Source of the DNA: Primulina eburnea
Taxonomy: Eukaryota; Streptophyta; Magnoliopsida; Lamiales; Gesneriaceae
Assembly: GCF_022965805.1 (NCBI RefSeq)
Contig: NC_133103.1
Coordinates: 25,569,462 to 25,633,461, forward strand
Direction of reading: 5' to 3'
Length of the DNA stretch: 64,000 nucleotides
Of the stretch, positions 28,767 to 55,698 are shown piece by piece (the first letter of the stretch is position 1; each line of letters starts with the position of its first letter). The translations under genes and the position numbers were made by a program. Below the pieces are notes generated by a model. It was not told the origin of the DNA. It saw nothing but the letters and a program-made list of their open reading frames with translations, and ran no database searches.

Positions 28767-30817
28767 TTTTAGAGTAGGTGCCCATCGAGCCAAGAGTTGG
28801 CCGAGGTTTCCCATTGAAACTCTATGTATAAACAATCTTTATTTTAATAATATTTGAAATTATTGTTTTGGCACATCTTTATCTGTATACCCATTCTAGT
28901 TTCATAGATAAAGTCCTTGAATATACAAATAGTAGAAAGAATATGAGATGCTCATATGATGAGTATCATGAAACTCATATTTAGAATATTGTATTTTCTA
29001 AATATTCCTAGACGATTCAGCCGTTGTTCAGAATAATAAAGGCCGCTCGAGTTTGAGAATAGTATCTGCGATGTGAGTACCATTTTTCATTGGTAGGGGA
29101 CATTGTGATGTCCGATTATTCAGATAGGTGCTCCTTGTAGAGTGCACTGAAAAACCCTCCATAAAGGACTTTCCAAATGGTTCTTACTTATCGAGTGGAA
29201 ACGTCCTTGTTTATGGTTGTACACCATTAGTCCTTATGACCCGGGAGAACAATGTGACTCTATATGCTAGCATTGCACTTTAACTTGTTTACTGACTCAT
29301 ATGGGTTGATCAGGTGGCAAGGTTGGGTGTTTTGTCGAAACATCTAGGAATCGTGCATTGTAGTCGGGGATTCACCGCTTACCTTCAGACATGGATATCC
29401 TATGTGATTTCATGTATATGTAGTTTGAAATCTCTGATCAGAGTGTTGGTGGTAAGTAAGAAAGGGGATTCTTAGATTACACCATCGATGCAACTACGAA
29501 ATGACACATAGTATCGATTCTTTGGCAACTCTCGATTTACCAATATTTGTCGAATCGGTCGAGATATATGAGATGAAGGGACCATACTATATGCTAACCA
29601 TAATGGAATCGCTCTTGCAGACACTATCATTCGTCTAGGGAATCATGTAAGTGATGTTGCTAGGTGTTTAACACGATTGGTTGGTTATTATCAGACTTGA
29701 GTTATGACGTTCTTATTATCAAGGAGCTGATAAGTAAGAATAGAGCAACTGGGATATGCTCATATAAGGACATGTTTAGTCCCGAATCACATAGAGATTT
29801 GAACCCAAATCTAGTTGTATTAATGAACCACTGAGGACCACATAAGTGCTAATTTTCTAGATCCCGTTGAGAAGAAAAATAATTCAATGTGTTGTTCGAC
29901 TTATAAAGGAGTTTATAAGCGCAAAGAAAAATAGAAGTATGAATTCTATAAGAGGATTATGGGGAATATAACTTTTAATTTGTGAAAGTGTTCCTAAATT
30001 AAAATTTGGCTCAAATAAATAATGTATTTGGGAATTGTTAATTTCATTAACATTGTTATGGACTAAATTAAATTAATTCTAGTGTTGAATTAATTAAACA
30101 CTAATGGACCTAGTAGAGTCAAAATAATTAAATTAATTCAACTGTTGAATTAATTAAATAAAATTGGGTATTGTAGAGCCCAATTAGATATAATTATTCA
30201 ACTAGTGTGCTTGAGTGAATTCAAGTAAAGATTTAATTGATCTCAAATGTGTTTGAGATGTTTAAATAATAGCCCATGGGTTTTGTACATGTTACAAGCC
30301 CAAATTGCATGCAAGGGAGGTGAAGAGTTGGGAGACAACTTTTTCAATAAACCAGGCATGTCTTGCACAAGCACTTTTAACTTTTTCAAAGACCCAGAAA
30401 AGTCTTCCTTTACATTTTTCCCTTCCCCTTTGGCCGAAATTCTCCATCAATTTCTTAAAAATATTTGCTTCTTCATTTGATGAAAGGATAAAAAACTTCT
30501 CAAAGAAAAATGTCTTGCATTTCCCAGTGCAATTGTAAGGTGGTTCTAGCTAGTTGGTAGTGGACTTGATTTTGAGCAAGGAGTGCTCAATGAAAGCTTA
30601 TAGAGTGGTCTACCCATTGAAGAGCTAAGTTGTTTAACAACTTAGTTCGAGCCATCATCAATCCTCGTGATTGATATGTAAAACACTAAAACACCCTATG
30701 TATGTTTGTGTTTTTGTATTTTCCACACACTAGTGAGGGATGCTTGGTTTTTCGCTTGTAATATTTTTAAAAAACTTCTGTTGCGCATTCCGGGCCCCCA
30801 TTTTCCGTTCCCTTTCA
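28767..30817 (+). repeat. 5' LTR of P
   Basis: About 2051 bp. The start is set by comparison with the Q LTR (49375-51457), where the edge is TGTTAGAGTAGG; here it has mutated to ttttagagtagg. It ends ttccctttca. Contains no gene. Confidence 0.78.
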
Positions 30818-30819
30818 AG

Positions 30820-30831
30820 TGGTATCAGAGC
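30820..30831 (+). other. Primer binding site of P (tRNA-iMet)
   Basis: TGGTATCAGAGC two bases after the LTR end. Confidence 0.92.
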
Positions 30832-32535
30832 TTAGGTCACTTTTTGTGTAGCAAATACATGATATTATATTGAGAACCAACCTATTTCTAACCACATGAG
30901 AAATCGAAACATCGAATCGAGGGCCGGATTGGGGGGCTTTTTCGGCGAATGGTTGCTGCCTGAAACGCCCCAACGTTTTAATTATAATAAAAAATTTTGT
31001 TGGCAGAAATCCGGCGACGGAGCTCCGGCAATGAAGATGACGACTAGGGTTTTCAAAAGTGTTTTGGAATATCAAAGTGTAATGGGCCTTAAGTTGTTGG
31101 GCCATTAGGTGATTGACATATTCTGTGAAATTTAAATGGGCCAAATTTTTTTGTGAAAAATATTTTTTTGGGCCCTAAGTTTAAATCTAAAAATTTTGTA
31201 TATATTTTCTCATAAAATAAATAATTGGAGTCAGACTATTTAATTATTTATAGTAAATGGTGATTTATAAGAAATTCAGTTATAAATAAATTAATTAGAA
31301 ATTAAACAAAGGAGTTTGTTTACTTTGTTGTTTTAATTTATAATCGTGGTGGTTAGTGATTGGATCAAGATATATAATATTGGATCAATTGATTATTGTG
31401 ATAATTAATTGATGGTGTATGATATGTGATATTGTGTATGAAAGATGATCAAAAGCTCAAGCCCAATTTGCTAGGTGTATGCTATTTTGTATTGAATGAT
31501 TGTAATAATTATCAATTTATAAGTGGGCTTGGTTTATAGCACGTTCCCACCCCATGAGATGTGTCCCTATTTGCCATGGATATTTATTTTTAAATATTAG
31601 TATAGTGGAAGATCAAGATTAAAAGATGGTGGGCATTGATGATTATGAAGATCGAAGATATTTAAATATTTAAAGCTTATGTAATTATGCATTTTCATCC
31701 CATGCATTCCCTAGGATTGGACCTAGGCCAGTGTTTGGCTCACACGGTCCATTAGTATTAGGACGATTGATCATCCTTGTTAGTTTATTGTTTATAATAT
31801 ATGCATGATATATTATAAATATTGATTATGTGCGTTATTATTATAAAAATAACTAAATTGGATGAATCCGGCACACATACGATCAAACATGGCGAGCTTT
31901 TAAATAAAATTAATGATGAGACCTTTCAAAATTTAAAAACCCTCATTTTGAACAAGATTCAAAATTAATATCAAGCCCAAAAAGGAGACTTATAAATGTG
32001 TTTATAATTTTTGTGTCTTCCATTGACAATGGATGCATGATGAACAGTATCCGTGCTTAGTGTTCGGCTCATATTATTGGGGTAGTGCTTGATGCCGAAA
32101 AGCTATGACATCCATTGACATGATGATGTGAACTACGTAGAAATCCCATGATTTCGGCTCATATCATTGAGGGAACTTATAGCAACCATCCATTAAGGTT
32201 CAATGTCGATAGGTAAGGCTTGACATGTAAGATGAACGACGTCATATTATTGGGTCCTAATAAAATGTGAGACAAAAATTTACGTAAAGGGTTGAATGAA
32301 GATGCAATAGGAAACTACTCTTTAGGAATTATTATTGGCTGATATTATTAGGGATCATAATTTGCTAATTGGACCTTACGTACCTACCGAGGAAAGGAGT
32401 TTCCCGTAGTGAAAAATGTCAAAACAGTGGGAGTAAAAATTTATGAAGTAAAAGTCCATACTTTATATCTTACTTAAATATTTTAAAATAGTCGTTAATA
32501 TTTATCTGTTTTTAATTTTCAATACAAATTTGACA
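30832..32535 (+). other. Long untranslated leader of P
   Basis: 1.7 kb between PBS and gag with no supported coding sequence. It has a GC-rich block at 30905-31040 and imperfect repeats of the type ggctcatat-attg(g/a)gg (32065-32175). The same leader occurs in reverse at 57579-59281 and, in part, at 48873-49374. Many retroelement leaders carry packaging signals; none can be identified here by eye. Confidence 0.7.
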
Positions 32536-34717
32536 ATGTCTTCGATTCACAACCTGTTATCTACAATACTCGATAAACACATTTTAGCCGGACCTAATGA
32601 CCTCAATTGGCTAACAAACCTAAAAATCATCATGAATTCGGAAAGGATAGCATATACAATAACTGAGTCGCCCCCTGTTGAGGCTCCGACTAGCTACACT
32701 CCTGAGGAATTGCAGACGTACAAGGATTGGTGTGACCATGACTTGCGAGCAAAGTGTTATATGCAGACTTCTATGAATGATGAACTGCAGAGGCATTTTG
32801 AGGATGCTAAGAGTGCTGGTGACATTCATTTGCATCTCAAAGAGCTCTTTGGTGAGCAAAAACGACCTCTTAGGCATACTACTATCAAGGAGCTAATCAC
32901 TTTACACATACGAGATGGGGTTCGGTCCATGAGCATGGCCTAAAGATGATTGGGCTTGTGCACAAGCTCGTTGGCATGGATCTTATGTTGCCATCGAAGT
33001 TGACCACTGACGTGTTCCTCTTGTCGTTGCCTAGCTCATTTGATCCTTTTGTGGTGAATTTCAACATGAACAAGCTGGAGCCTACCCTTCAGAAGTTGAT
33101 GAATATGCTTGTTAGATTTGATTCTACCATCAAGAAAGAGAAGTCGGTTCTTTATATGGGTTCTTCATCTGGTACGAAGACTGGTCCACATGGGAGGGGA
33201 AAAAAGCTTCTTTCCAACGTCCCAAGAAGAACGTACCCTTGAAGAGGCAAAATCCGAGTCCCGCTATGGTAGCCATACAAGTTAAGGCTGAAATGACTGC
33301 TGATATTTGTCATCAATGCAAGAAGCCTAGACATTGGATGCGTAACTGCAAAGAATATCTTGCTCAGAAAGGTTCAAGAAATGGTATGTTCTACATTGAA
33401 GTAAACATTTCCATTAACTCTACTTCTTGGGTACTAGATATCGGTTGTGGCTCACATCTCTGTAATGATTTGCAGGTGATGGGAATAACTAGAAGACTTA
33501 GGGAAGGTGAGACCTTTTTTAGGATGGGCAATGGATCAGGAGTTGCTGCCAAGGCTGTAGGAGATGTTTACTTATTGTTGAACAATGATTTTAAGTTAAT
33601 TTTAAAAGATATTTTGTTTGTACCCGATTTGGTGAAAAAATTGTTTCCATTTCTATGTTTGATAAAGATAGATATTCTTTTTTATTTAGCAAAGGTGTTT
33701 GCAACATTTACAAGAATGAATGTTTGATTGGTAGGGGAGAACTTGAAAACGATATCTATAACTTAAAATTGAAAGATATTCTACTAAACAATGTCCAAAA
33801 AATAACAACAAAAAACAAGAGAAAACAAGATACTCTAAATTTGGCAAAGTAATGGCATGCTCGATTAGGACATATTTCCCTAAGAAGAATTAACAAGCTG
33901 GTGGGAGTAGGCATGTTTGATATGTCTGATATTAATTCTCTCACGACTTGTGAATACTATCTAAAAGGAAAGATGACCGAAATTCCCTTTAAAGGCCACG
34001 TGGAGAGAGCCCAATGATTATTGGATTTGATCCTTATTGACGTGTGCGGTCCACTTAGCATCACCACTAAGCAAGGACATTCCTACTTCATCACCTTTAT
34101 GCTTTTTTTTCAAGGTATGGGTATGTGTATTTGATGAAATACAAATATGAAGCCTTTGAAAGGTTCAAAGAATTCAGAAATGAAGTAGACAAAAAGTTGG
34201 GACGAAGCATCAAGTCACTTCGATCGGATCTAGGTGGTGAGTACTTGAGTGCCGAGTTTCAAGAATATCTTAGGGAGAATGAGATTCTCTCGCAGTGGAC
34301 TTCACCAGCTACACCACAATTGAATGTTGTTCCAGAGCGTCGTAACCGGACTTTGATGGACATGGTTAGGTCTATGATGGGGTTTACGGAGTTGCGGCCA
34401 TCCTTTTGGGGATATGCACTTGAGACAATGGAACTGTTGTTGAACATTGTCAATTCAAAAGCAGTTGATAAGATACCATATGAGATATGGATGGGTAAGC
34501 CTCTCAAATATTCTTACCTTAGAATATGGGGATGACCTGCTTACGTGAAGCAAGTAGTGGAGATAAATTGGATAGTCATTCCATTTTATGTTACTTTGTG
34601 GGATATCCAAGAAATTCAATTGGATATTTTTTCTATCATCCCCAATAAACAAATGTACTTATTTCTAGGAATGAAACCTTTTTGGAAAAGGAATTTATGT
34701 TCCATAGAAAAGGGGAG
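32536..34717 (+). pseudogene. Copia P gag, protease and integrase remnant
   Basis: Gag starts at ATG 32536 (MSSIHNLLSTILDK), with LAGPNDLNWL and DHDLRAKCYMQTSM, typical of plant Copia Gag. Stops fall near 32943 and 33242. A knuckle, CHQCKKPRHWMRNC, is near 33310. The protease active site reads VLDIGCGSH near 33430, with the usual DTG or DSG changed to DIG. A GAG_pre-integrase segment and integrase follow in broken frames (33655-34535); the integrase keeps RSDLGGEYLS and PERRNRTL. The G insertion splits it at 34717. It would have encoded capsid and integrase; now inactive. Confidence 0.85.
34713..34717. repeat. Target site duplication of G, left copy
   Basis: gggag here and again at 47810-47814. 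Joining the flanks restores Copia sequence seen uninterrupted in Q. Confidence 0.9.
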
Positions 34718-35821
34718 TGTTGCAACTCTGATTGTTGCACTCCTAAGAGCAGGTTGTCCACAAGTAGTATAATTCGGTGAGTCTGATATCGTATCCACAA
34801 GGAAGCTAAGGTAATTACAAGTCCACTACAATGTCTTTTTGTTTTGTTTTTGTTTTTGTTTTTGTTTCTTTTTAATTTTAATTGTTTGAATCTTTAATGG
34901 TTAAATTTTAATTGTTCAAATTTTAATTTAAGTAGTTGAGATTAAAGGATCCACTCTTGGTATTTTAATAAAGTTAACATTAACGAACAATATTGAATCC
35001 ACTTAATAAAATGGTTCCAATATATTAAATAATCATATTTATATTATGTTATATATTATTATCTTATAAGTATATAATATATACTAAAACTTATAAATGT
35101 TGTCAAGTATTTAATGTGCTATATATATTTGTAAACACTAAATCAAGGTTCCCACTTTAAATGGTTGGTAAAACCAAACTAACATTTAAATGGTACCAAT
35201 AAATTAATATTATGATATATTTATATATAGTAAATCAAGGTTCCCACTTTAAATGGTTGGTAAAACCAAACTAACATTTAAATGGTACCAAGAAATTAAT
35301 ATTATAATATATTCATATATAATAAATCAAGGCATCCACTTTAAATGGTTGGTAATACCAAACTAACATTTAAGTGGTTCCAAGAATTTAGTGTAACATA
35401 TAGCAACAATAAATCAAAACTCTCACTTATAAGTAGGATATAAAAATACTTAAAGAAATAAATATAACATAAACAATAAATAATGATTAAATAAAAAAAA
35501 CATAGATTCTTACCTTTTAGTAACCTTATTATCATGCCAAGAGTTTCACCTTTTCATCTCAACTTTAGGAAGTTAGCTATTCATTATTCAAAGTGTAAAA
35601 CTTTGAATATGAAATTATCATGCTAATTATATTTAAATGAAGAAATAAAGGAAAAATATAGAGAGAAATATTATGAACTCAAAGGTTTGTTCATAGAATG
35701 AGGAATATTTCAATACATTACAATGCATCCCTATTTATAGCCAAATTTGGGGAGACAACCACAAATAAACTATTATTTTTTTACACATATGTCTTCATTG
35801 CACTACAAAAAAAAGACTAAA

Positions 35822-36180
35822 GACAACGGTGAAAAACCGTTGTTGTATGTCTTGAAAAACCGTTGCTAAATCCCATGTGATTAAAGGGTACGCTCAAAGA
35901 CAACGGTGAAAAACCGTTGTCGTAGACATCAAATACAACGGTGGAAAACCGTTGTGGTATGTCTTGAAAAACCGTTGTTAAAGCTCATGTGGTTAAAGGA
36001 TACGCTCAAAGACAACGGTGAAAAACCGTTGTCGAAGAAGTCAAATACAACGGTGAAAAACCGTTGTCGTATGTCTTAAAAAACCGTTGTTAAAGCCCCT
36101 GTGGTTAAAAAGTATGCTCAAAGACATCGGTGGAAAACCGTTGTAGTAGACGTCAACGACAACGGTGAAAAACCGTTGTA
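35822..36180. repeat. Left subterminal palindromes of the CACTA element
   Basis: Repeated acaacggtgaaaaaccgttgt units, each a short hairpin, with degenerate tgtggttaaaggatacgctc spacers. The mirror set is at about 36950-37370. Probable transposase binding sites by analogy with other CACTA elements. Confidence 0.75.
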
Positions 36181-36930
36181 AAATGATATTTGCGACGGAC
36201 TTCATAAAAAAACCCGTTGCAATTAGCGACGGTTTTGTAACCGTGAATAAACTTAGCGACGGTTATTAATAACCGTCGCTAACGGTAGCGACTGTTTATC
36301 ATTAACTGTCGCTAAATATAGCGACGATGCTCATGTAAAATACCGTCGCTACTTAACGACAGTTAATACATGAATTATGTAGCTAATATTTTCGGTAAAA
36401 TAAAAAAAATTAATAATTTAATAAATCTGTTTTGTTAATTGGTACAATCGTGTAAGAGATAAAAAAAAATTAAGTGTCGTGAAGTGATAAAATCGTGTAA
36501 GAGATAAAAATTTTAATTGTTTTGAAGTGGTAAAATCGTGTAAGAGATAAAATTTTAAGTGTTGTGAAGTGGTAAAATCGTGTAAGAGATAAAAATTTTA
36601 AGCCTTGTGAAGTTGTAAAATCGTGTAAGTGATGAAAATGGAGCGAATTTGCATGTATTTATAGAGAGTGGTGGAAGAAAATGGAGGGGAAATTGGGTGG
36701 GTTCGAATTTTTGAAATTGGCGACGGTGTTTCTAAAACGGTCGCTACTATTCGCGACGGTTATAGAAAATGCGTCGTTAATATTTGCGACAGTTATAGAT
36801 AAAGCGTCGCTAATTTCAAATTAGCAACGGGTGCACTTGATTCTGTTGCTTACTTTAGCGACGGTTTGAATTGACCGTCGCAAATATGAATGTAGCGACG
36901 TTTATCTATTACCGTCGCTAATATACCGTT
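36181..36930. repeat. Central agcgacgg motif block of the CACTA element
   Basis: Many copies of agcgacggtt and its complement aaccgtcgct, in both orientations. Between them lies a tandem repeat of about 50 bp with gtggtaaaatcgtgtaagagataaaa (about 36425-36640). No coding sequence. Confidence 0.7.
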
Positions 36931-37907
36931 GTGTTCTATTTTTAATCAACGCCAATCGACAACGGTTTTTCTAAAACCGTTGTCGATTGTCCAAAAAACA
37001 CGCTAATAGACAACGGTTTATGAAACCGTTGTCATTAACGTTCAAAGACAACGGTTCTGTAACCGTTGTCATTGACCCTAAAAACCGTTATCTTTGACCC
37101 CCAAAAGACAACGGTTTTTCTAAAACCGTTGTCGATTGTCCAAAAAAACACGCTAATAGACAACGGTTCATGAAACCGTTGTCATAAACATTCAAAGACA
37201 ACGGTTTTACAGAACCGTTGTCATTGAACCTAAAAACCGTTGTCTTTGATCCCAAAAAGGCAACGGTTGTATAAAAACCGTTGTCGTTTGCTTAAAAAGT
37301 TATCTACGGTTTTAGCTAAAACCGTTGTTAAAAAGTTTTTTAACAACCGTTTTAGCTAAAACCGTTGTCGTATGTGTGTTGTTGATTCTGAAAATTCTTG
37401 TAGTGTTGGTGTTCCAAGATATTATATTATATTACACATTACTTTTGAAAATCTTCTTCTCCGAATTTGCTTCTTCACATAAAAAAAAACATGTGGATAT
37501 TTGAGTTGTCTAGTTGTGGTATTTTTTTCAAACCATTTGACCAAGTAATTTGAGAGATATAGTCAAAATACTAGAGCATGGTAAAACTGCCACTCTTTTG
37601 GTAACTTTATTTGTTGCTTAATTTGATCCCAATTGTGAGAGGATTTTTATCTCATGCTTGCCACCAATATTGTAGATATTAACATCAACTTTCTATAGGT
37701 TCAAGAATCATCTTAATCCCATTTGCAACGTCAAGTTTATTCTTGTTTTATCGAACCTGTAAAAATAGTAAAAACTTGTAATTACACAACAACTTATATT
37801 TTAAACAATTTATTATAAAACATATAATATTTAAACATTTAATAAAACAAAAACTATATATTTATATTATAAAACATTTAATTAATGTACAATTTTTATA
37901 TTTATCA

Positions 37908-39004
37908 CACCTCCCAACAAGCTTATTGCTAGTTCCTAGCAATGTAAGCGTTAATAGTAATACAAAACATATTGATTAATTTAAATAAAAATGTAATCAA
38001 AACTATCTAAGTGTTTAAATTAAATTTGAAAACTGTCAAAGTTATATCAAGATCATCAAAATTATAATTTATGAAATAATTTGAGATGATCAATTCAAAG
38101 CTTATTTCAGGTAGTTAAATGTACACGGGTCTAAACTCCTTATCCTCACAGGTTATTAAATGTTTCAATTTATGGCAACGATTTCTCTCATGGAGTTGGA
38201 ATACAGATAAATGCTCAGAAAAAATGGTTTACAGAATGCAGACAGACAAACGAGCCAAACTAATCAAAAGATAGAAAATCCATTGATTCAAAATCTAGTT
38301 GTTCTTATTATATATTTTTTCCTGATATTTTTTTTTTCATAACATCATGGAATCAGACTAAGTTTATGCTTCTTGACCACATATTTATTTAATTTATACA
38401 ATAAACTTCTCTCTTTCTTTCTTTTTTTCTTTTTCTTTTTTTTTTAATGAGCGATATATAGGTCGTAGCATATAACTTAAAAATTACAAAGATCTTCAAT
38501 ATCTTTCTTTTTGTATTTTTCCCCTTTTTTTTTTCAGGAAATATCATTTTTTTTTTCAAAAAAAGAACTCAAGATCTAAACAATAGATAGTCTCTTTCAT
38601 GATCAGTAAAGGCTCGAAAGTTGTTTTCTCAGTCCTCTCCACTCACTTACAAAATATGTGTGAGTTTATAATTTTAAGCACTCTTATAAGGTATATCTTG
38701 GGCCATATACTTTAATACCTGATTTTATCACAATGGTTAATCACTCAAAAAGATTTCATAAATCATATTTTTATATTGATCAGAATATTAAAATTGACTT
38801 TTTTTTTTCAAATAAAAATTTAAACATTCTTAAATAGATTAATGCATGTTCTAATTTAAATCTTTCAAACATGTAATGTATGATATTTTTGCAAAAATTA
38901 ATAAAATACAAACAATAAACATGATTTTATTTTAAAATAATATATATATATATTTTATTTTTTATTTTTTAAAGATACAAACAATAAACATGATTTTATT
39001 TTAA

Positions 39005-39039
<35 letters not shown>

Positions 39040-39224
39040 ATTTTTTATTTTTAAAATTTTTTTAATTTTTTTTATAAGTTTATTCTCCCCCCAATCAGAA
39101 TATGACATTGTCCCTAATGTCAAAATAACTATTAATAAAGAGTACATGATGAAAGAGATATCACCTGGAATTTTATTGAAGATAACAAACTGAAACAAAC
39201 GCAAGCCAATCCACGACTTTTGAA
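37908..39224 (-). other. 3' non-coding region of G
   Basis: AT-rich, with pyrimidine runs near 38397-38445 and AT microsatellites at 38940-38953 and 39009-39034. A candidate polypurine stretch (gttgggaggtg on the minus strand) abuts the 3' LTR. Near 39088-39122 the minus strand reads a palindrome, gacattagggacaatgtc, followed by a G run (attggggggag), a signature I associate with the region just after pol in Tat/Athila elements. No other gene is seen. Confidence 0.6.
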
Positions 39225-39863
39225 TCAATGATCGAACTTCCTTTTCTTACTGCCTGATTGCGACCAATTGATCTTTGTTATCATCGGATCAGGCTTATGA
39301 ACAAAAGCTTCCAAATCATCAATTAATTGGTCGGCAGTCGAAGCACAGATGAGCATCCGTCGTGAATTTTCTGAAATGAAATTCTGTTCCACAGCTTTAT
39401 CAAGAAATGTCAACAAACTGTCATAATAATTATTGATATTCAACAAGCCCACAGGTTTATTATGGATATTAAGTTGTGCCCAAGAAACAGTGTGAAAAAT
39501 TTCTTCTAATGTACCAAAACCACCTGTTAGTGCGATAAAAGCATCAGAATTTTCAATCATTTGAGTGATTCTTTCATACATAGAAGAAACTTTTAATTCC
39601 TCCCCAATCGTAACACCTGTAATATTTCCTTCAGGTAAAGCTGTAGGAATAATACCCAAAACCTGACTACCTCCAAGATGAGCAGATGTTGAAACATATC
39701 CCATTAACCCAATATTACCTCCCCCATATACCAAGGGAATTTTTATCTCAGCCAATATCTTTCCAAGATTATTCGCTGCTTCTACAAACACTTCATTTTT
39801 TCCAGGACTCGACCCACAAGATACACAAATATTTTTCAATGTTTGTGCAGAGGATCTAGCCAT
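39225..39863 (-). CDS. LOG-like: LOG-like cytokinin riboside 5'-monophosphate phosphoribohydrolase, retrotransposon cargo
   Basis: 212 aa, intact and intronless. LOG enzymes release active cytokinin bases from their nucleotides in one step in cytosol and nucleus. Visible family features: ICVSCGSSPG at 12-21, VYGGGNIGLMG at 45-55, VLGIIP at 68-73, Arg98 in MYERI, TGGFGTLEE at 113-121 and SWAQLNIHNKPVGLLN at 127-142. The usual motif is PGGxGTxxE, so Pro is replaced by Thr113, and the usual Lys after the conserved Arg is Ile99; catalytic-type Arg98 and Glu121 remain. The C-terminus ends in a basic KKRK stretch, possibly nuclear targeting. Length is normal for the family. Plant LOG genes normally have several introns, so capture through RNA is likely. 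A polyadenylation-like aataaa follows the stop by about 50 bp. It lies between pol and the 3' LTR of G, on the same strand. Confidence 0.9.
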   Translation of the reverse strand: MARSSAQTLKNICVSCGSSPGKNEVFVEAANNLGKILAEIKIPLVYGGGNIGLMGYVSTSAHLGGSQVLGIIPTALPEGNITGVTIGEELKVSSMYERITQMIENSDAFIALTGGFGTLEEIFHTVSWAQLNIHNKPVGLLNINNYYDSLLTFLDKAVEQNFISENSRRMLICASTADQLIDDLEAFVHKPDPMITKINWSQSGSKKRKFDH

Positions 39864-39884
39864 GTTTTTACTTTCTTATTTTGT

Positions 39885-39920
39885 CTGCGAAAATAGAGAG
39901 AAAGATGAGAGATTTTATAG
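39885..39920 (-). promoter_or_regulatory. Possible promoter or splice acceptor of the LOG-like ORF
   Basis: On the minus strand the sequence reads ctataaaatctc (TATA-like, 39911-39920), then a pyrimidine tract ending ttttcgcag (AG at 39885-39886), then the ATG at 39863. It could be a TATA promoter with a short leader, or a 3' splice site producing a subgenomic mRNA. Sequence alone does not decide. Confidence 0.4.
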
Positions 39921-40061
39921 GTGTAATATGTTATCATGACAAAACTATGGGTCACAGCTGTAAACAGAATAAATAATAATGACACACATGCATATAAACA
40001 GTAGTGTGATTGTGGCTCACTTTTCCTCTTGTTTTACGTCCAGAAACGGCTTCAACGCCTT
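39921..40061 (-). other. Gap between the Cys-rich ORF and the LOG-like ORF
   Basis: About 140 bp with no coding signal. AT-rich, with tgcatgtgtgtcatta on the minus strand. Confidence 0.5.
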
Positions 40062-40606
40062 CTATGAGTCGAGAATATGCTTCCCATCCAATTTTCTTAT
40101 AAACTGGCAAACATGGTCTTTTTTAGTCGGATTCCCAAGACTATGACGCTCATCTTGGAATTGTTTCCATAAACGGAGAAGTTCAATATGCACATGTCCA
40201 CTAGAATGCGTCTCAAAAGTCAATAAGATGTTATCTAAAGACTCCTTACTCAGCCCATTCTTAATGAAACCAATTTTATCTTCTCTGTTATTGGAAACAC
40301 ATCCCAAAGATCTGCATCGTTTGTCACAAGTCCATCTTGCACACTTATGACAAACCCCTAAACTTTTGGCCCTTCGTTTTTCTCATAAGTGCTTTTTCCT
40401 AATCCAGGCAAATACCGAATGAGCAATGATTGTGGAACTTGTCCTCCTAATCGGACCTTAGCTTCTATTAGAAGACGAATATCTTCTAGAATTCCTTTTT
40501 GCATTAGCAATCTCAATCTTTCACACCTTCCTGCATAAATTTTTCTTAGAACATTTTCAGAAACAGAGGGAAAATATTTACAAATTTTTGAGAGAATTTC
40601 ATCCAT
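40062..40606 (-). pseudogene. Cys-rich basic protein ORF in two frames, cargo of G; resembles flexivirus nucleic-acid-binding proteins
   Basis: First frame 40606-40358: 82 aa starting MDEILSKICKYF, helical, ending soon after LGKSTYE. Second frame, open from about 40379 to 40062: a basic stretch, KRRAKSLG, leads into CHKCARWTCDKRC and a fifth Cys, then about 90 helical residues with no ATG before 40307. The two frames meet at a five-base run (40377-40381), so one lost base or a -1 slip would link them. The layout (helical N-terminus, GxSxY, arginine-rich block, close Cys cluster) recalls the small Cys-rich RNA-binding proteins of carla- and vitiviruses, some of which affect silencing. This is pattern recognition without a search; it could be an unrelated zinc-binding protein. 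It follows pol by 171 bp on the same strand. Confidence 0.45.
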
Positions 40607-40777
40607 TTTGAAAACAAAAAAAATGATTTTTTTTTAATTTTTGTATCAGCAATTGTGGGAAACTGATTTAACAACTATGAGAGTCACGGAGTACCGTTAT
40701 CCGCCATTTAACCGGGAAGTAAAAAGACTAAAGAAACCTGAAACAAAAGCAAACAAAAGTAAATGCAACATAAAAAT
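40607..40777 (-). other. Spacer between pol and the cargo ORFs of G
   Basis: No coding signal; T-rich/A-rich, with a run of about ten T near 40628 (plus strand). Confidence 0.5.
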
Positions 40778-41982
40778 TTAAGGATCAGAAAGGGAAATAA
40801 ATTTTTCTTGAAAGATTTCATTTTCCAAAAATGGTTTAAACCTTTGTCCATTCACTTTAAAAACATCACCATTTTTAGGATTTTCAATATCCACAGCTCC
40901 ATAAAGATATACATGCTTTACAACATATGTGCCTGTCCATCTTGATCGTAATTTTCCTGGGAATATGTGAAGTCGAGAATTATAAAGCAAAACTTTTTTT
41001 CCAATCTCAAAAGATTTTCTAAGAATTGTTTTATCATGAAATGACTTCATTTTTGCTTTATAAATCCTTGAATTCTCATACGCTTCATTTCTGAATTCAT
41101 CAAGTTCATTAAGTTGCAATTTACGCAATTTTTTGGCATCATCCATGCTTGAATTTAAAGTTTTGATCGCCCAATAAGCTTTATGTTCCAATTCCACAGG
41201 AAAATGACAATGTTTTCCATAAACCAACCTATAGGAATACATATTCAATGATGTTTTAAAAGCTGTTCATATGCCCAAAGTACATCACTAAGTCGCAGAG
41301 ACCAATCTTTTCTATTTGAGTTAACAGTTTTTTCCAAAATTTGCTTTATCTCCCTATTAGCTAATTCAACTTGTCCATTTGTTTGAGGATGATAAGGAGT
41401 AGTTACTTTATGAGTAATACCATATTTTTTCATTAATGAAGAAAATGGTTTATTAACAAAGTGAGTTCCTCCATCACTTATCATGGCTCGAGGAATTACA
41501 AATCTACTAAAAATATTTTCTTTTAAAAATTTGATGACGATTTTATGATCATTTGTTCGACATGGAATTGCCTCTATCCATTTGAAAACATAATCAAATG
41601 CAACTAAAATATACAAGTATCCAAACGACGGTGGAAAAGGTCCCACAAAATCAATTCCCCAACAGTCAAAGATTTCAATTTCAATGATATGATTCAAATG
41701 CAGCATGTTTCTTTTTGAAATCGCACCCAGTTTTTGACAATTTTCACAGATCTTGCAGATTTCGTGGGTGTCTTTAAACGAAGTGGGCCAATAAAATCCA
41801 CACTGCAAGATTTTTGCACCCGTTTTCTTTGAAGAAAAATGTCCTCCGCATGCTTCTGAATGACAAAATTTAATGACACTACTTACCTCATTCTCGGGTA
41901 TGCAACTTCGAAAAATTTGATCTGGACAATACTTGAACAGATACGGATCATCCCAATAAAAGTTTTTTACCTCATTCAAAAT
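40778..41982 (-). pseudogene. G integrase
   Basis: Minus-strand integrase in two overlapping frames (41979-41245, 41248-40778). It has the His/Cys finger (HSEACGGH, then CKICENC), then GIDFVGPFPPS (Asp), ISDGGTHF (Asp) and NGQVELANREIK (Glu) as the DDE set, and a C-terminal stretch, GKLRSRWTGTYVV, with GAVDIEN, typical of Tat/Athila. No chromodomain. Stop at 40778. A frame change near 41246 separates the catalytic core from the C-terminus. Confidence 0.88.
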
Positions 41983-42099
41983 TTTTTTTTTTATCTTGAG
42001 AACTCCATTGTGGTAGCATTTTACCTGTCACAAGAAAATTTACTATGTTAGCAAACCAAGATGTAGTAGTAACTGAAAATAGATGTTCATCAGGAAAAT

Positions 42100-43953
42100 T
42101 ATCGTTAATTGGTGTCATTTCACAAGATGATCATATTACTAGTCCCGATAAATGATCGGCTACGACATTCTCGGTTCCTTTTTTTTATCTTTGATCACAA
42201 TATCAAATTCTTGGAGCAACAAAATCCATCATATCGGTCGTGGCTTTGCATCATGTTTGGTCAACAAATATCTAATAGCAGAATGATTAGTAAACACAAT
42301 ATTCGTTGATCTAATCAAATAAGAACGAAATTTATCTAATGCAAATATTACAGCAAGTAGTTCTTTTTCAGTTGTGGTGTAATTCATTTGAGCATTGTTT
42401 AAAGTTCTACTTGCATAATATATCACATAAGGCTTACCGTTTCTTCTTTGACCAAATACTGCACCGACTGCATAATCACTCGCATCGCACATGATTTCAA
42501 ATGGTAAACACCAATCAATAGGTCGCATGATAGGAGCTGATGTTAAATGTCGAATGATTTTATCAAAAGCATTTTGACATTCTTGAGTCCACTCAAATGC
42601 ATTGTCTTTTGTTAAGAGGTTACAAATGGGTTTAGAGATTAAACTAAAGTCCTTTATAAACCTCCTATAAAATCCAGCATGTCCCAAAAATGAGCTAATT
42701 TCTTTAATGGTTTTTGGAGGGGGTAAATTGGCAATGACATCAACTTTTGCTTTATCAACTTCAATTCCATGAGATGACACGACATGTGCCAAAACAATTC
42801 CAGAAGTAATCATGTAATGACATTTTTCCCAATTTAAAATAAGACCTTTTTCCTCGCATCTTTTTAAAACTTTTTCCAAATTTTCAAGACAATTATCAAA
42901 TGTATTCCCAAAAACAGTTAAATAATCCATGAAAATTTCCAAACAATTTTTAACCATGTCGCAAAAAATGCTTAGCATACATCTTTGAAATGTTGCTGGG
43001 GCATTGCATAATCCAAATAGCATCCTTCTAAATGCAAATGTTCCAAAAGGACATGTGAATGTAGTTTTATTTTGATCTTCGAGTGCAATGGGAATTTGAT
43101 AATAACCTGAATATCCATCAAGAAAACAATATTATGGATAACCTGTTACTCTTTCTAAAATTTGATCCAAAAATGGTAATAGAAAATGATCTTTTCCAGT
43201 GGCGTCATTTAATATTATATATTTAATACACATCCGCCAACTAGATGGGACTCGACTTGTTAACAATTCACCGTTTTCATTTTTTATCACTGTGATGCCA
43301 GATTTTTTTGGAACTACTTGTGTTGGGCTTACCCACTTACTATCAGAAATAGGGTAGATAATCCCAACATCAAGTAGTTTGAGAACTTCAGTTTTCACAA
43401 CATCTTTCATGTGTGGATTTAATCTCCTTTGTGGTTGTTGAGATGTTTTAGCATTTTCTTCTAAGTGAATTTTGTGAGTGCAAATTAGTGGATTAATACC
43501 CTTAAGATCTTTTAGTGTCCAACCAATTGCATTTTTATGTCTTTTAAGCATATCAACTAATTTACTTTCTTGATTACTTGATAGTTTGGAAGAAATTACC
43601 ATCGGATATGTTTCATCTTCTCCAAGAAATGCATACTTCAATTCTTCTGGCAAGGGTTTTAACTCCAATATGGGTGGTTCGTCTTTGTTCTCATATTTTG
43701 CATCAAATTCTTTCTCTGATTCTGGTAACAAGTGATACCTGATAAAATCATCAAAATCAATTTCAATATTTTCTTTAACAGTTTCAATTGAACAAATATC
43801 TAATTGATCACGAGTACTCTCTTCTTGAATGTTTTCTTCCACAAGAGTTTCAATAAGATTTTCATCTTCACTTTCATCTCCTTTGTCATGTGGTTGCTTA
43901 CGAAGATTCAAAACATTGAGCTCCAAGTTCATGTTACCAAATGACAACTTCAT
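42100..43953 (-). pseudogene. G reverse transcriptase and RNase H, active site altered
   Basis: RT begins in frame 43953-43132 (RRLNPHMKDVVKTEVLKLLDVGIIYPISDS, VPKKSG), meets a stop near 43130 (TGYP then TAA), and continues in 43023-42229 with MLFGLCNAPATF. The catalytic YxDD-type motif reads IFMDYLTVFG: the second Asp is Tyr, which should abolish polymerase activity. RNase H follows (MCDASDYAVGAVFGQR, YYTTTEKELLAV). Another stop is at 42229. Upstream residues 43800-43950 are an acidic linker. Confidence 0.88.
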
Positions 43954-44043
43954 TAATCCATTCTTGCAGTTTATAAGAGCATTAGAAGTTGCTAAAAATG
44001 GACGACCCAGAATTACAGGAATTGCATTACAAGCTTCGATAGG

Positions 44044-44661
44044 TTATGTATCTAAAACTATGAAATCGGCAGGATATACAAAGTTACCAACTTGGACCCA
44101 TATGTCTTCTACCATACCTCTTGGCACTTTAACAGATCTATCTGCAAGTAAAAGTGTAACCGAAGTAGATTTTAACTCACTTAGATTGAGTTCTTGATAA
44201 ACTGAATATGGAAGTAAATTCACACTAGCTCCAAGATCAAGCAAGGCTTTTTTAATCTTTCGTTCTCCAATAATACATGAAATAGTAGGACAACCAGGGT
44301 CTTTGTATTTCAAAGTATTATTATTTTGAATGATTGCACTTACTTGTTCGGCTAAAAATTCTTTCTTTTTCACATTCAATTTTCTTTTCACAGTGAACAA
44401 GTCTTTCAAAAATTTGGCATATGATGGTACCTGTTTTATTGCATCTAATAAAGGAATATTAACTTTTACTTGTTTAAAAATATCATATATATCAGAATTC
44501 AAATTTGATTTTTTTGTATTTTTCAATGCATTAGGGAATGGTGGTGACACTGTCTGTTGAACCTCTTCTTCGCAAGTTATGGGTTCCACTTCCTTACTTT
44601 GGAGTTGATTTATCATCAGCTTCACAAGGTTCAAGAATGGATTTTTCCACAACCTTACCAC
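44044..44661 (-). pseudogene. G protease region
   Basis: Minus-strand frame with the retropepsin motif ALLDLGASVNLLPYSVY, where the usual D-T/S-G is DLG as in Athila and Tat elements, and ILVQ-like downstream strands (EDIWVQVGNFVYPADFIVLDT). It is in a different frame from gag and RT in this copy because of mutations. Confidence 0.8.
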
Positions 44662-46022
44662 TTCGAAGGGTAATAACAGATTTTACCTGATCCATCGGTT
44701 GAGTTCCAGAAGTTCCATTTTGTGAATGATGATCCTTGGGATTAGGCAGAGGTTGTGAAGGAAATTTACTTTTTTCATTACATTAAGTGCAGATGCAAAT
44801 TTAGCAAGAGTATCTTTCAAATCTGTCATGGTTTGAGCAGTTTGAGTATTGATAGACTCTTGCTTTGCAATGAAAGAATTCAATAAATCTTCCGAATTCC
44901 TTTTAGGTGGAGGAACATTAGGTGCATAATTTTGAAAATTTTGTTGATTTTGAAAATGTGGTTGCGGAAATTGTGCAGCATTATCATTCCTCCAACTAAA
45001 ATTTGGATGATTTCGCCAATCTGGATTGTAATTTTGAGAAAATGGTTCAAAATTTGGCCTTTTGAAATTGTTCAAAACATTGGCTTGTTCATGGAGACAT
45101 TCTTTAAAAGAGGGCAAAGTGGGACAATCTTTTGTAAAATGATCACTTGTATCACAGATGTGACACACAATTTCTTGAACAGATTTTAATTGACCATTCT
45201 TTTTCAATTCAAGTGCCTCAACTTTTCTTGCCAAAGAGGTAAATCTAGCTTGAAGATCATGTTCATCTTTGAGAGTGTACATACCTCCACCATATGTGGG
45301 AGATTGAATCTTGTTTGATGGTTCGATTGTATCTATAGTGTCCCAATTTTGAGCATTTTCAGCTAATGAATCGAGATACTCAATTGCCTCGTTTGGATCT
45401 TTATCTTCAAATGTTCCATTACACATAAATTCAACCATTTGCAATCTTTAGGCGTTAAGCCTTCATAAAATTGAGAAACAACCCTCCAAATTTCAAAACC
45501 ATGATGTGGACAAAGATTAAGCAATTCTTTGTATCTATCCCAACACTGATAAAAAGTTTCTCCTTGTTTTTAAGTGAAAGTGATGATTTGCCTTTTGAAA
45601 GAATTTGTTCTATGTGATGGAAAAAACTTTTTCAAAAATTGTTGTTGCAATTCATCCCAAGTTCGAATGGATCCCGATCAAAGATTTTGTAGCCAAGTTT
45701 TAGCTTTATCTTTTAAAGAAAAAGGAAAAAACATAAGTCAAATGGTGTTCATGCTACAATTTAGATCATTATATGTGTTGCACACTTCTTCAAACTCTCG
45801 TAAATGCATATATGGATTTTCAGAATCTAAGCCATGAAAGTTGGGAAAAAGTTGGATAATACCAGGCTTAAAATTGAAATGAGATGCATCAGGGGGAAAA
45901 ACTAGACATGAAGGTGCACTAGTACGTGTAGGATTCATGTGATCTCTAAGTGTTCTTCGTCTATCATGATCATGTTGAGATTGAATTTCATCTTCATTTT
46001 CTTGGATGGGTTCTTCCGCCAT
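44662..46022 (-). pseudogene. G gag remnant
   Basis: Starts MAEEPIQENEDEIQ at 46022. The sequence FKPGIIQLFPNFHGLDSENPYMHLREF is characteristic of Athila/Tat Gag. It stops near 45738; the region 45450-45735 is broken by further stops. Frame 45444-44683 carries a knuckle, CHICDTSDHFTKDC, and an asparagine/glutamine-rich tail. Confidence 0.85.
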
Positions 46023-46196
46023 GTTTTATAAAAATAAAGGGTTATTTCGAACGAGTCGACCACTAAGTGTACATGACCAAATGATCATGCAAATGCAAAT
46101 GCAAAAGAATAAAAACACACAAAAGCAACAAAAAATTCAAATAAAGAAAAATAAACTATAAAGGAAATTAAATAGACTTGAAATTAAATTATACTT

Positions 46197-46213
46197 CCCC
46201 GGCAACGGCGCCA
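46197..46213 (-). other. Primer binding site of G (tRNA-Asp)
   Basis: The minus strand reads TGGCGCCGTTGCCGGGG, complementary to the 3' end of plant tRNA-Asp(GTC), six bases from the 5' LTR. Confidence 0.9.
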
Positions 46214-46219
46214 AAAACT

Positions 46220-47809
46220 TGTTGCGACTCTGATTGTTGCACTCCCAAGAGCAGGTTGTCCACAAGTAGTATAATTCGGTGAGTCTGATATCGTATCCAC
46301 AGGGAAGCTAAGGTAATTACAAGTCCACTACAATGTCTTTTTGTTTTGTTTTTGATTTTGATTTTGTTTTTGTTTCTTTTTAATTTTAATTGTTTGAATC
46401 TTTATTGGGTAAATTTTAATTGTTCAAATTTTAATTTAAGTAGTTGAGATTAAACGATCCACTCTTGGTATTTTAATAAAGTTAACATTAACGAACAATA
46501 TTGAAATCCACTTAATAAAATGGTTCCAATATATTAAATAATCATATTTATATTATGTTATATATTATTATCTTATAAGTATATAATATATACTAAAACT
46601 TATAAATGTGGTCAAGTATTTAATGTGCTATATATATTTGTAAACACTAAATCAAGGTTCCTACTTTAAATGGTTGTTAAAACCAAACTAACATTTAAAT
46701 GGTACCAAGAAATTAATATTAAGATATATTTGTATATAGTAAATCAAGGTTCCCACTTTAAATGGTTGGTAAAACCAAACTAACATTTAAATGGTACCAA
46801 GAAATTAATATTATAATATATTCATATATAATAAATCAAGGCATCCACTTTAAATGGTTGGTAATACCAAACTAACATTTAAGTGGTTCCAAGAATTTAG
46901 TGTAACATATAGCAACAATAAATCAAAACTCTCACTTATAAGTAGGGTATAAAAATACTTAAAGAAATAAATATAACATAAACAATAAATAATGATTAAA
47001 TAATATAAAACATAGATTCTTACCTCTTAGTAACCTTATTATCATGCCAAGAGTTTCACCTTTTCATCTCAACTTTAGGAAGTTAGCTATTCATTATTCA
47101 AAGTGTAAAACTTTGAATATGAAATTATCATGCTAATTATATTTAAATGAAGAAATAAAGGAAAAATATAGAGAGAAATATTATGAACTCAAAGGTTTGT
47201 TCATAGAATGAGGGATATCTCAATACATTACAATGCACCCCTATTTAAAGCCAAATTTGGGGAGACAACCACAAATAAAATATTATTTTTTACACATAAG
47301 TCTTCATTGGTGTTCCAAGATATTATATTATATTACACATTACTTTTGAAAATCTTCTTCTCCGAATTTTCTTCTTCACATTAAAAAAAAACATGTGGAT
47401 AATTGAGTTGTCTAGTTGTGGTATTTTTTTCAAACCATTTGACCAAGTAATTTGAGAGATATGGTCAAAATACTAGAGCATGGTAAAATTGCCACTCCTT
47501 TGGTAACTTTATTTGTTGATTAATTTGATCCCAATTGTGAGAGGATTTTTATCTAATGCTTGCCACCAATATTGTAGATATTAACATCAACTTTCTACAG
47601 GTTCAAGAATCATCTTAATCCCATTTGCAACGTCAAGTTTATTCTTGTTTTATCGAACCTGTAAAAATAGTAAAAACTTGTAATTACACAACAACTTATA
47701 TTTTATACAATTTATTATAAAACATATAATATTTAAACATTTAATAAAACAAAAACTATATATTTATATTATAAAACATTTAATTAATGTACAATTTTTA
47801 TGTTTATCA
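46220..47809 (-). repeat. 5' LTR of G
   Basis: 1590 bp, tgttgcgactctg to gtttatca. It shows the empty site of the CACTA insertion near 47300 and the same 115-bp direct repeats (46640-46900). The right target copy gggag follows (47810-47814). Confidence 0.92.
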
Positions 47810-47814
47810 GGGAG

Positions 47815-48872
47815 ATGATAGCACTCGAAGAGGTTCGAGAGACAACCACAATTGTAGAACCCACACCCGTCGAGCCAAGAGAGGAGATACAAATTCCTAG
47901 AAGATCCGAGAGAGTCTCGAAACCACCCATGATGAGCCTAACCATGGATGTGATCCAATAACATTCAAGGAAGCGTTATCTGATGCCGATTCATCTATGT
48001 GACTTGAAGCAATGGAATCTGAGATGAATTCCATGCATTCGAACCAAGTGTTGAATTTTTTGGATCCATCTGAGGGAACTATTCCCATAGGGTGTAAATG
48101 GATTTACAAAAGGAAACTTGGGGTAGATGGCAATGAATTGACCTTCAAGGCGCGATTGGTAGCAAGAGGCTATACTCAGAGACAAGGAGTTGACTATAAG
48201 GAAACCTTTTCTCCAGTTACAATACTAAAGTCTATAAGGATATTGCTAGCCATAGCTGCATAGTATGACTATGAGATATGGTAATTGGATGTAAAGACAT
48301 CCTTTCTTAATGGGGATATTAAGGAAGATATTTACATGTCTGAACCTGAAGGGTTTACATCTATCGGAAGTGAGTATATAGTATGCAAACTTCAAAAATC
48401 TATTTATGGTTAAAATTAGGAAACTAGGAGTTGGAACCTCAGATTCGATAGTACAATCAAAGAGTTTGGTTTTACTAAGAATCCAGAGGAACCTTGTGTG
48501 TATAAGAAGGCCAGTGGGAGTGCTGTGACATTTCTGGTACTTTATGTTGATGACATTCTACTCATTGAGAATGATGTAAGGAATTTGCAATCAATTAAAA
48601 TACGGTTAGCGAGTAAGTTCTTGATGCAGGACTTGGGTGAAACAACTTCTGTATTGGGGATACAATTATATAGAGATATACCAAGAAGATTGCTTGGTCT
48701 CATGCAAACCACATGCATTGATAAAATAATTAAGTAGTTCTCGATGGCTGAGTCCAAGAGATGACATCTACCAATGTGTCATGGCGTGTCCCTATCGAAG
48801 TCTATGTCTCCCAAAACTGATGCCGAGATAGCGGCAATGACAAGCTATCCTTATGCATCTGCAATTGGTACA
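47815..48872 (+). pseudogene. Copia P reverse transcriptase remnant
   Basis: Continues the pol of P after G. RT starts [19 protein letters not shown] and [14 protein letters not shown]...[24 protein letters not shown] (48012-48263), meets stops near 48263 and 48412, and resumes with LYVDDILLI, the Copia YVDD active site (48540-48560). It ends at an abrupt junction near 48872 after the YASAIG-type segment. Confidence 0.85.
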
Positions 48873-49374
48873 ATCACTAACCGCCACAATTATAAATTAA
48901 ATCAACAAAGTAAACAAACTCATTTGTTTACTTTCTAATTATATTATTTATAATCGAATTGTAAATCCCAATTTACTATAAATAATTAAAGTTCAACTTC
49001 AATTATTTATTTTATGAGAAAATGTATACAAATTTTGTAGATTTAAACTTAAGGGCTTAAATTTCACAAATTATGTTAAACATCTAATGGCCCAACAACT
49101 CAAGGCCCGTGACACTTTGATATTCCAAAAAACTTTTGAAAATCCTAGTCGTCATCGTCGTTTCCAGAGCTCCGTCGCGGGATTCCGACCAACATGAAAT
49201 TTTTTTTATTCAAAAGGGGGGGGGGGGGGGGGTAGGGCTGCCCTTGTTGCCCGAAAACCTCCCCGAAATTGTCCTTGATTTGTTGTAACGATTATCTCAT
49301 GCGGTCAGAAATTATATTCAATATAATATCATGTATTGGCTACACATAAAAGTAATCTTAGCTCTAATACCACT
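48873..49374 (-). other. PBS and partial leader of a second Q-type element
   Basis: The minus strand reads TGGTATTAGAGC (49361-49372, one mismatch to tRNA-iMet), then leader sequence matching 58735-59281 until the junction at about 48873. It includes a run of 17 G (49216-49232). Non-coding. Confidence 0.75.
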
Positions 49375-51457: not shown

Positions 51458-51591
51458 ATCTCCAACTTTCACTAGAGCTAACTACCCATATGCTTCAAAC
51501 CCATTGATTCGCGATGTTTCTCGAATAATGGTCCAGGTAAAGGATTAGTTAGTGGATCAACAACATTAACCGCGGGGCCAACTTTTTCAAT

Positions 51592-53514: not shown

Positions 53515-53519
53515 CGCAT
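53515..53519. repeat. Target site duplication of the solo LTR, left copy
   Basis: cgcat here and at 55694-55698, on either side of the solo LTR. Confidence 0.9.
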
Positions 53520-54207
53520 TGTGGGGACCCGGACGCTAATCATGTTCTTAATCATCATTGGGACTAATTATTCCATTATAAACAGGGTCTAAAAATTTTT
53601 CTTTTAATATACAAGCGGAAACGTAATGCAATTCAATTCAAATTACATATTAAACATAAACATACACATCATGTATTATCTACAAGGATTCAACTAGGTT
53701 CAACTACATATCAGTGCTGAATCCTAAGTTGCTTCGAAGCCCGGATCTCCACGCTATCTAGTCCAGCCTCTTTCTTTTCTTGACCCTGAACCTGCCCCAC
53801 CTGTTGTCATGCACACATACAAAACAAGACAACAGCCGGATAACTCCGGTGAGATATAAATATCCCAGTATAAACAATGTAAACGTGCAATCATATAAAA
53901 ACATATATAAAAGCATATAAGCAATAATCATAACATGTATCAAATCAGAACATGAAGCAATATCAAGAATAACTCTTATTCTAAACATGTACCATCATCA
54001 GGAACATAATCAACATCAAATAATATAAATCAATATCAAGCAATGACTCACACTCAGACTCAAACTCAACTCAAACAACGCGTCGTCTCAGACTCGACTC
54101 AACTCTAACCTAGGGATCCCGATGTCTGGATATAGGTAATTATATCGAATCTCAGTCGATAGGAATGAATCAATCCCTAAACGGCATCGATGTAATTAAT
54201 ATCTCCA

Positions 54208-55524: not shown

Positions 55525-55698
55525 ATGGCAGCTCCCTCGCACACCTTTCGTGTATTTTTCCGTCTTTTCCGGCTAATCCGTTCTGTCTATATTTACCGTA
55601 ATTAATTCATAAATCATTTCAGATTAATTCCAGATTACGGTACTCATACCCAAATCATTTCAGATTACGGTAATTAAATTCTAGGGCATTACACGCAT

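Follow-up and report, generated by a model that had tools for sequence, protein, structure and literature searches.

The stretch of DNA analysed here, called the window below, comprises 64,000 nucleotides of Primulina eburnea (contig NC_133103.1, positions 25,569,462 to 25,633,461 of the forward strand), and all coordinates are counted from its first nucleotide. A Gypsy element of 13.1 kb lies on its minus strand at 34718-47809 and is bounded by CTCCC at both ends. Two direct long terminal repeats (LTRs), a target-site duplication and a primer binding site identify it as an LTR retrotransposon, and its pol pieces follow the Ty3/Gypsy order of protease (44616), reverse transcriptase/RNase H (43023) and integrase (41706) on the minus strand. 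Its features, read in the direction of the element, are as follows.

47810-47814, no strand: target-site duplication CTCCC, 5' side of the element
46220-47809, minus: 5' LTR, 1590 bp, TG...CA
46196-46213, minus: primer binding site TGGCGCCGTTGCCGGGGA, directly after the 5' LTR
44683-46022, minus: gag region, broken; includes an ORF (44683-45438) with a zinc-knuckle match below cut-off
44044-44616, minus: aspartic protease piece of pol (Asp_protease_2, E 1.6e-5)
43132-43953, minus: N-terminal reverse transcriptase piece of pol, with no Pfam match of its own; resembles gene models that bear reverse transcriptase
42229-43023, minus: reverse transcriptase/RNase H piece of pol (Pfam)
41245-41706, minus: integrase core piece of pol (rve, E 1.9e-14)
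40778-41242, minus: integrase C-terminal piece, in a different frame from the core piece
40738-40756, minus: splice-acceptor-like site TTTTGTTTCAG, between the pol stop and the zinc-finger ORF
40065-40606, minus: zinc-finger ORF, in two frames (40606-40361 and 40382-40065)
39885-39903, minus: splice-acceptor-like site TATTTTCGCAG, 21 nt ahead of the LOG ATG
39225-39863, minus: LOG-family ORF, 212 aa, frame open, P113 changed to T
37908-39178, minus: 3' non-coding spacer that abuts the 3' LTR; its start is the apparent resumption, by eye, of similarity to the related contig L007 (below)
34718-37907, minus: 3' LTR, TG...CA, split by a DNA transposon
35801-37405, no strand: CACTA-type transposon, 1605 bp, CACTACAAGAA...TTTTGTAGTG, nested in the 3' LTR, with a 3-bp duplication CAA
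34713-34717, no strand: target-site duplication CTCCC, 3' side of the element

A preliminary description of this DNA, made from the letters alone, had placed a LOG-family ORF between pol and the 3' LTR in element orientation and had it enclosed by LTRs and a 5-bp target duplication. Coordinates and Pfam agree that the ORF lies at exactly 39225-39863 on the minus strand, and the enclosure was also correctly seen: both LTRs run from TG to CA, and CTCCC is exact on both sides. That description overlooked a second accessory ORF between integrase and LOG, most of whose scanned relatives match carlavirus-type nucleic-acid-binding proteins. The region from pol to the 3' LTR of the window element holds these two genes, with no env-like ORF recognised there, and an Rfam scan of 34700-47820 gave no family at gathering score. 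The LTRs differ in 32 of 1581 columns (K2P 0.021, with the 1605-bp CACTA-type insert excluded), which gives the element an age of about 0.8 million years at a rate that we take to be 1.3e-8 per site and year, and a paralogous, copia-like part of the window (about 53097-53519) shows the insertion site uninterrupted. Gag, pol and the zinc-finger ORF are all broken, gag by 15 stops in the reading frame that the ATG at 46022 opens, counted as far as 44683; the window element is one decaying copy of its family.

The surroundings of the element are themselves repetitive. Copia-like stretches are repeated at about 28769-34717 and 47810-59591, one of which hosts the Gypsy element while another shows the uninterrupted site. 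No gene was recognised in the CACTA-type transposon (35801-37405), which has many AACCGTTGTC-type repeats. Two direct repeats, 3983-5322/9975-11314 (1340 bp, 100% identical) and 11338-12953/17538-19154 (1617 bp, 99.3%), are each a recent LTR pair or a duplication.

The Gypsy element had been called Athila-like. This assignment is probable: the primer site TGGCGCCGTTGCCGGGGA, which we take to be of the tRNA-Asp type, and the readable pol of contig L007 agree with it. In that contig an unbroken frame (104-1594) holds H2C2 and rve and gives no second RNase H match; the window's own pol is broken. An additional RNase H (aRH) marks Tat as opposed to Athila elements (PMC6317226). The ATHILA ORF-1 domain (PF03078), on the other hand, had no match in the three extra-ORF pieces of the window that were scanned; because this domain is found in 16% of Athila elements (PMC6317226), so that its absence is usual in the lineage, the missing match does not exclude membership.

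The LOG ORF runs from ATG to stop, encodes 212 aa and matches Pfam Lysine_decarbox (PF03641) at E 1e-36; its best PDB relative is 2a33 (At2g37210; E 2.2e-60). Its AlphaFold model (mean pLDDT 88, below 50 for the last 11 residues) superposes on LOG crystal structures from Arabidopsis and Pseudomonas at 0.7-1.6 A in the first six matches. The ORF thus has both the LOG fold and the PF03641 domain that mark membership of the LOG enzymes. The motif PGGxGTxxE, which we understand to define the LOG cytokinin-activating enzymes, reads TGGFGTLEE in the window and PGGFGTLEE in 20 of 20 other copies from the same genome (L016-L035). Twelve residues, among them P113T in the PGGxGTxEE motif, separate the window LOG from its nearest database relative, P0001. 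The 24 other rows in the alignment all keep the usual residue at the position of F15S, and 23 of them do so at that of P113T. The description of this LOG as intact is therefore right for its open reading frame but not for its residues, two of which, including the catalytic-motif proline, have changed at conserved positions. That this particular copy makes a working enzyme is not supported, given the loss of that proline, the broken gag, pol and zinc-finger ORF, and the neutral-looking substitution pattern described below (pN/pS 0.93).

We searched the P. eburnea assembly (812 Mb) for further LOG copies and scored 150 of the 1447 candidates. All 150 are at least 93% identical to the window LOG, span residues 1 or 2 to 212 and are stop-free. 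Element sequence adjoins LOG in every one of 20 loci fetched with 9.9 kb each: integrase and zinc-finger similarity lies upstream in 19 of them, the window's 3' spacer is present in 19 and the window's 3' LTR in 18. The exceptions are L023, which lacks the upstream part, L033, which lacks spacer and LTR, and L035, which lacks the LTR. A host LOG query of the same genome showed no host LOG gene among the matches listed; these, at least 150 in number, cover nearly the whole protein without a stop at 50-53% identity, and many of them lie at places already found with the retrotransposon LOG.

Public protein models give a similar picture. Gag/pol pieces resembling those of the window element are fused to LOG in 20 of 44 long LOG-containing models (12 from Citrus sinensis, 2 from C. 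x changshan-huyou, 2 from P. tabacum, 2 from P. eburnea, 1 from P. huaijiensis and 1 from Acer saccharum). Gag/pol precedes LOG in 18 of these and follows it in P0145 and P0147, and part of the zinc-finger protein is present in 16. Among the remaining 24 long models, P0122 has the zinc finger joined to LOG but no pol; the other 23 are bacterial LOGs, host fusions or unplaced proteins. A Xanthoceras LOG model includes the stretch of the element that precedes the protease. Reevesia, Diplodiscus and Xanthoceras contribute 34, 12 and 8 entries, respectively, to the best 120 of 5710 LOG relatives, as expected if many of these are transposon genes, with flanks seen in the one Xanthoceras case. P0005 (LOG) and P0183 (zinc finger) each come from a contig of 8723 bases, which suggests that both lie on one contig. 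In IMG/VR neither the LOG protein nor the zinc-finger alignment found a relative, and the LOG alignment as query found 6 loci at 26-44% identity. With 20 of 20 flanked loci, 18 of them carrying the same 3' LTR, and 20 of 44 protein models with gag/pol, LOG indeed moves with the element, as had been proposed; it sits at the same place in many related copies and is not confined to a single one.

The second accessory gene has relatives in several plants as well. Of 3332 candidates in a search with zinc-finger relatives, 1184 matched at E of 1 or below; the named entries among the 120 matches listed come from Xanthoceras, Populus, Orobanche, Rhamnella and Citrus, and 90 of these 120 proteins have a basic stretch followed by CxxCx4Cx3-5C. 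The whole frame is open in 14 of the 20 sampled own-genome copies. Ten hand-picked relatives were scanned against the Pfam families of carlavirus-type nucleic-acid-binding proteins (PF01623/PF05515) at gathering cut-offs: seven passed Viral_NABP (best E 1.2e-8; P0181 by 0.1 bit), six passed Carla_C4 (best E 1.5e-6), and three (P0165, P0170 and P0273) stayed below both. The window's own broken pieces scored E 0.63 or nothing. The structure model of the zinc-finger protein (pLDDT 53) is too poor for a claim about its fold. Among the first 24 of its viral structure matches, 18 are named silencing suppressors or nucleic-acid/RNA-binding proteins, although all 35 matches fall short of E 0.001 and Foldseek takes sequence into account too. 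Most of the relatives scanned resemble carlavirus p12 and other betaflexivirus nucleic-acid-binding proteins in matching Carla_C4 and Viral_NABP. Unlike carlavirus p12, the gene is encoded by an LTR retrotransposon and its product is mostly about 180 aa long, with a predicted suppressor role; the p12 of chrysanthemum virus B, a carlavirus, is reported to activate transcription in the nucleus and to suppress silencing (PMC7588395).

One relative has the zinc-finger gene without LOG. L007 (DAIEQH010000041.1) was the single plant-like contig from the prokaryote contigs searched; it is filed under a Candidatus Nomurabacteria MAG, and because its content is that of plant-type retrotransposon DNA it is probably contamination. 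L007 and the window are collinear from the end of integrase, over acceptor and leader, to the zinc-finger ORF and the flank on its 3' side, and 72% of 1391 columns are identical along this stretch. After the zinc-finger flank, about 100 bases in L007 stand against about 825, including LOG, in the window, and beyond this gap a short, weak match follows (61 columns, E 0.001), with the 3' junction near 39178 by eye. No LOG-like ORF was found by eye among the ORFs of at least 40 aa in L007, which ends 780 bases past the junction. LOG is therefore either an addition in the window lineage or a loss in that of L007, and it is not needed by all such elements. A short stretch before the zinc-finger ORF (CCCGG..GGCGGATAACGGTACTCCGTGACTCT; about 1662-1710 in L007, about 40720-40675 in the window) is almost unchanged despite the 72% overall identity, and might be an RNA signal.

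Both accessory ORFs are directly preceded by splice-acceptor-like sites. A strict acceptor pattern, run on both strands of the internal region, found three such sites on the sense strand (40738, 39885 and 38260), of which the first two stand ahead of the zinc-finger ORF and the LOG ORF, respectively. The antisense strand has six, so that the motif alone is weak. The LOG site is present in 20 of 20 sampled copies, and the zinc-finger site is found near its place in 16 of 20. A donor-like GAG/GTAAGA can be seen by eye in the 5' LTR at 47024/47023, and from this arrangement we infer that the LTR leader may be spliced to both acceptors.

We also placed the window LOG among other LOG proteins. A tree of 108 sequences, from which 11 short rows and four odd gene models had first been removed, unites 93 in a single clade with the window LOG (SH-aLRT 100); the rows outside it are two Arabidopsis LOGs and 13 that we took as host LOGs by their position and tails. 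A second tree of 62 rows, which included the LOG parts of fused models, puts 38 in this retro clade (support 100/99), and here the Citrus gene-model LOGs fall in the same clade as the window LOG. Rooted on a bacterium, the second tree sets the retro clade beside the host LOGs and not within them, a position that is unreliable because of long branches. In both trees the window LOG sits inside a single retro clade apart from the host LOGs. The clade spans the Sapindales, Malvales, Rosales and Lamiales. It includes P0010, which is annotated as LOG3-like. LOG rows with as little as 47% identity to the window LOG have 40 invariant columns in common with it.

Motifs were counted in the 85 other full-length rows of the 108, the 23 truncated or odd ones being left out. 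PGGxGT[LM]EE is present in 70, GT[LM]EE in 81 and the conserved arginine pattern in 72; 15 of the 85 deviate from PGGxGT[LM]EE. In Citrus, [GR]DLATLEA replaces GGxGTLEE, with loss of the last glutamate, in all six segments read (of 10). This loss and the 15 deviating rows mean that enzyme activity is not kept everywhere: judged by its motifs, LOG activity is plausible for many lineages and probably lost in Citrus. The retro-LOGs also have distinctive tails, with a basic C-terminal cluster in 73 of 85 and an LxLxL end in 65 of 85, as against 0 of 13 for both in the rows taken as host LOGs. We take the basic cluster to be nuclear-localisation-like and the LxLxL end to resemble the plant EAR co-repressor motif. 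The protein might then owe its retention to a binding or regulatory role in the nucleus and not to enzyme activity, the LOG fold serving as a scaffold for the basic cluster and the LxLxL end. Citrus fits this, since the KKYKL[DN]LTLRL end is still present in 5 of 10 LOG segments there although the catalytic glutamate is gone. We nevertheless consider a purely regulatory LOG unlikely, given that GT[LM]EE survives in 81 of the 85 rows, that the window lineage (the window LOG, P0001, P0003, P0010 and P0017) has the basic cluster without the LxLxL end, and that the tail is of low confidence in the structure model.

Polymorphism among the copies bears on whether the two genes matter to the element. 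For LOG we compared 25 own-genome copies besides the window's, pooling 300 pairs; L038 was left out of the counts though its LOG frame is open. pN/pS is 0.247 among the 25 copies, a value biased downwards because the copies were found by protein similarity to the LOG of the window or of a host and only open frames entered the counts, and 0.929 between them and the window LOG. The 26 sequences include 18 distinct ones, 8 being identical to another. Variants common to at least two copies comprise 11 synonymous and 6 non-synonymous changes and singletons 21 and 30. From the ratio of sites, about 3.6 non-synonymous changes per synonymous one would be expected without selection. For the zinc-finger gene, pN/pS is 0.265 (91 pairs, from the 14 of 20 copies with the whole frame), a value subject to a similar downward bias; shared variants are 6 synonymous and 4 non-synonymous, and singletons, at 3 and 11, are near the neutral ratio. 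Both accessory genes look to be kept by selection in the sampled copies; on our reading, they are retained in active elements, and insertions like the window copy go on to drift.

These data can also be set against the idea that LOG and the zinc-finger ORF are passengers, captured by a successful element on which they hitch-hike and functionless for it. The absence of LOG from its place in L007, the drift of the window copy at 0.93, the bias of the sample towards conserved copies and the mostly non-synonymous zinc-finger singletons would all agree with hitch-hiking. Linkage in Citrus, Acer and Primulina with a single LOG clade, sampled-copy pN/pS of 0.25 (LOG) and 0.26 (zinc finger), and the 40 invariant columns that persist even in rows at 47% identity argue the other way, and we think functionless passengers quite improbable. 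To a host LOG gene or retrogene landed by chance in this one element, for which the existence of host LOG genes and the intron-free ORF are the sole points, we give virtually no credence and reject it on copy number (150 of 150 scored matches of one kind), element flanks (20 of 20 stretches at 9.9 kb) and trees that place the window LOG in the retro clade and not with host LOGs.

The reading that we favour, with rather more belief than doubt, is that the window holds a decaying copy of an Athila-type element with a 3' two-gene module, in which a viral-type zinc-finger gene and a once-captured LOG gene are each expressed from a spliced RNA of their own. The module would occupy the place of the env-like ORF of other such elements. 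Its first gene would encode a zinc-finger protein of the carlavirus-type nucleic-acid-binding and silencing-suppressor kind, and its second a LOG that goes back to a single capture of an intron-free copy by an ancestor of the elements that rosids and asterids carry today. Each protein would probably be translated from an RNA in which the LTR leader is spliced to the acceptor before its ORF. In the most likely mode of action, the first gene would dampen siRNA defence, act in the nucleus, or both, and the second would free active cytokinin from cytokinin nucleotides; cytokinin release might favour dividing, meristem-like cells, where new insertions reach the germ line. That the LOG works as an enzyme, that the zinc-finger protein suppresses silencing and that the element profits from them are predictions, as is the splicing. 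More tentatively, and with doubt somewhat the stronger, we suggest that these elements form a widespread plant LTR lineage with a virus-style host-manipulation module, in which a suppressor-like zinc-finger protein and LOG, made from their own spliced RNAs and kept by selection, would together evade siRNA and push cells to divide.

How far is this new? No element of this kind was known to the preliminary description, and as worded that claim to novelty fails, because the YgdH (LOG) domain has been reported in LTR-element consensuses of Citrus sinensis and C. clementina by Alvarado-Marchena et al. 2022 (PMC9289625) and, without a filter, in LTR elements of Populus trichocarpa as well; the same paper cites Steinbauerova et al. 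2011 as in line with its YgdH finding. Those elements are like the window's in carrying a LOG-type domain in plant Gypsy elements. The report is a single passage that tests no enzyme, names no partner gene and offers neither a phylogeny nor an analysis of selection; compared with that passage, the family described here adds an occurrence in Lamiales, a zinc-finger partner, a shared gene order, signs of constraint and acceptor-like sites. In the literature searched, as far as its accessible portions go, we found no description of a zinc-finger/LOG two-gene module, and a word search for 'cytokinin' and 'lysine decarboxylase' found neither in the main text of PMC6317226, PMC11963269 or PMC7264820. 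The finding is therefore known in part, namely LOG in Gypsy elements, while for the viral-type partner these sources gave us no account. It is real and reaches beyond the preliminary description: a multi-copy, apparently constrained two-gene module.

Other Gypsy elements offer partial parallels. Athila4, Calypso and Bagy-2 (PMC7264820) belong to the Athila type and have an env-like ORF after pol and ahead of the 3' LTR. The window element is like them in the position and sense of its extra ORFs, in a possible spliced RNA and, we presume, in primer site type; unlike them, it has two other genes instead of a recognised env-like ORF. Gypsy elements of Phalaenopsis carry an AlkB-type RNA demethylase of assayed activity (PMC9289625). 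They share with the window family an additional enzyme gene that has become fixed in its Gypsy lineage and a proposed role in host interaction; enzyme and hosts differ, and activity was assayed there whereas LOG here is known from its sequence.

Plant LTR elements are usually viewed as targets of siRNA silencing. If our reading is true, a retrotransposon would, in the manner of RNA viruses, influence both the development and the defence of its host, and a testable prediction would link cytokinin, meristems and transposition. The finding also bears on the role of ORFs between pol and the 3' LTR in Athila-type elements and on the passage of genes between plant RNA viruses and retroelements. Finally, many plant proteins annotated as 'LOG' or 'cytokinin riboside 5'-monophosphate phosphoribohydrolase', such as P0010, may be transposon genes.
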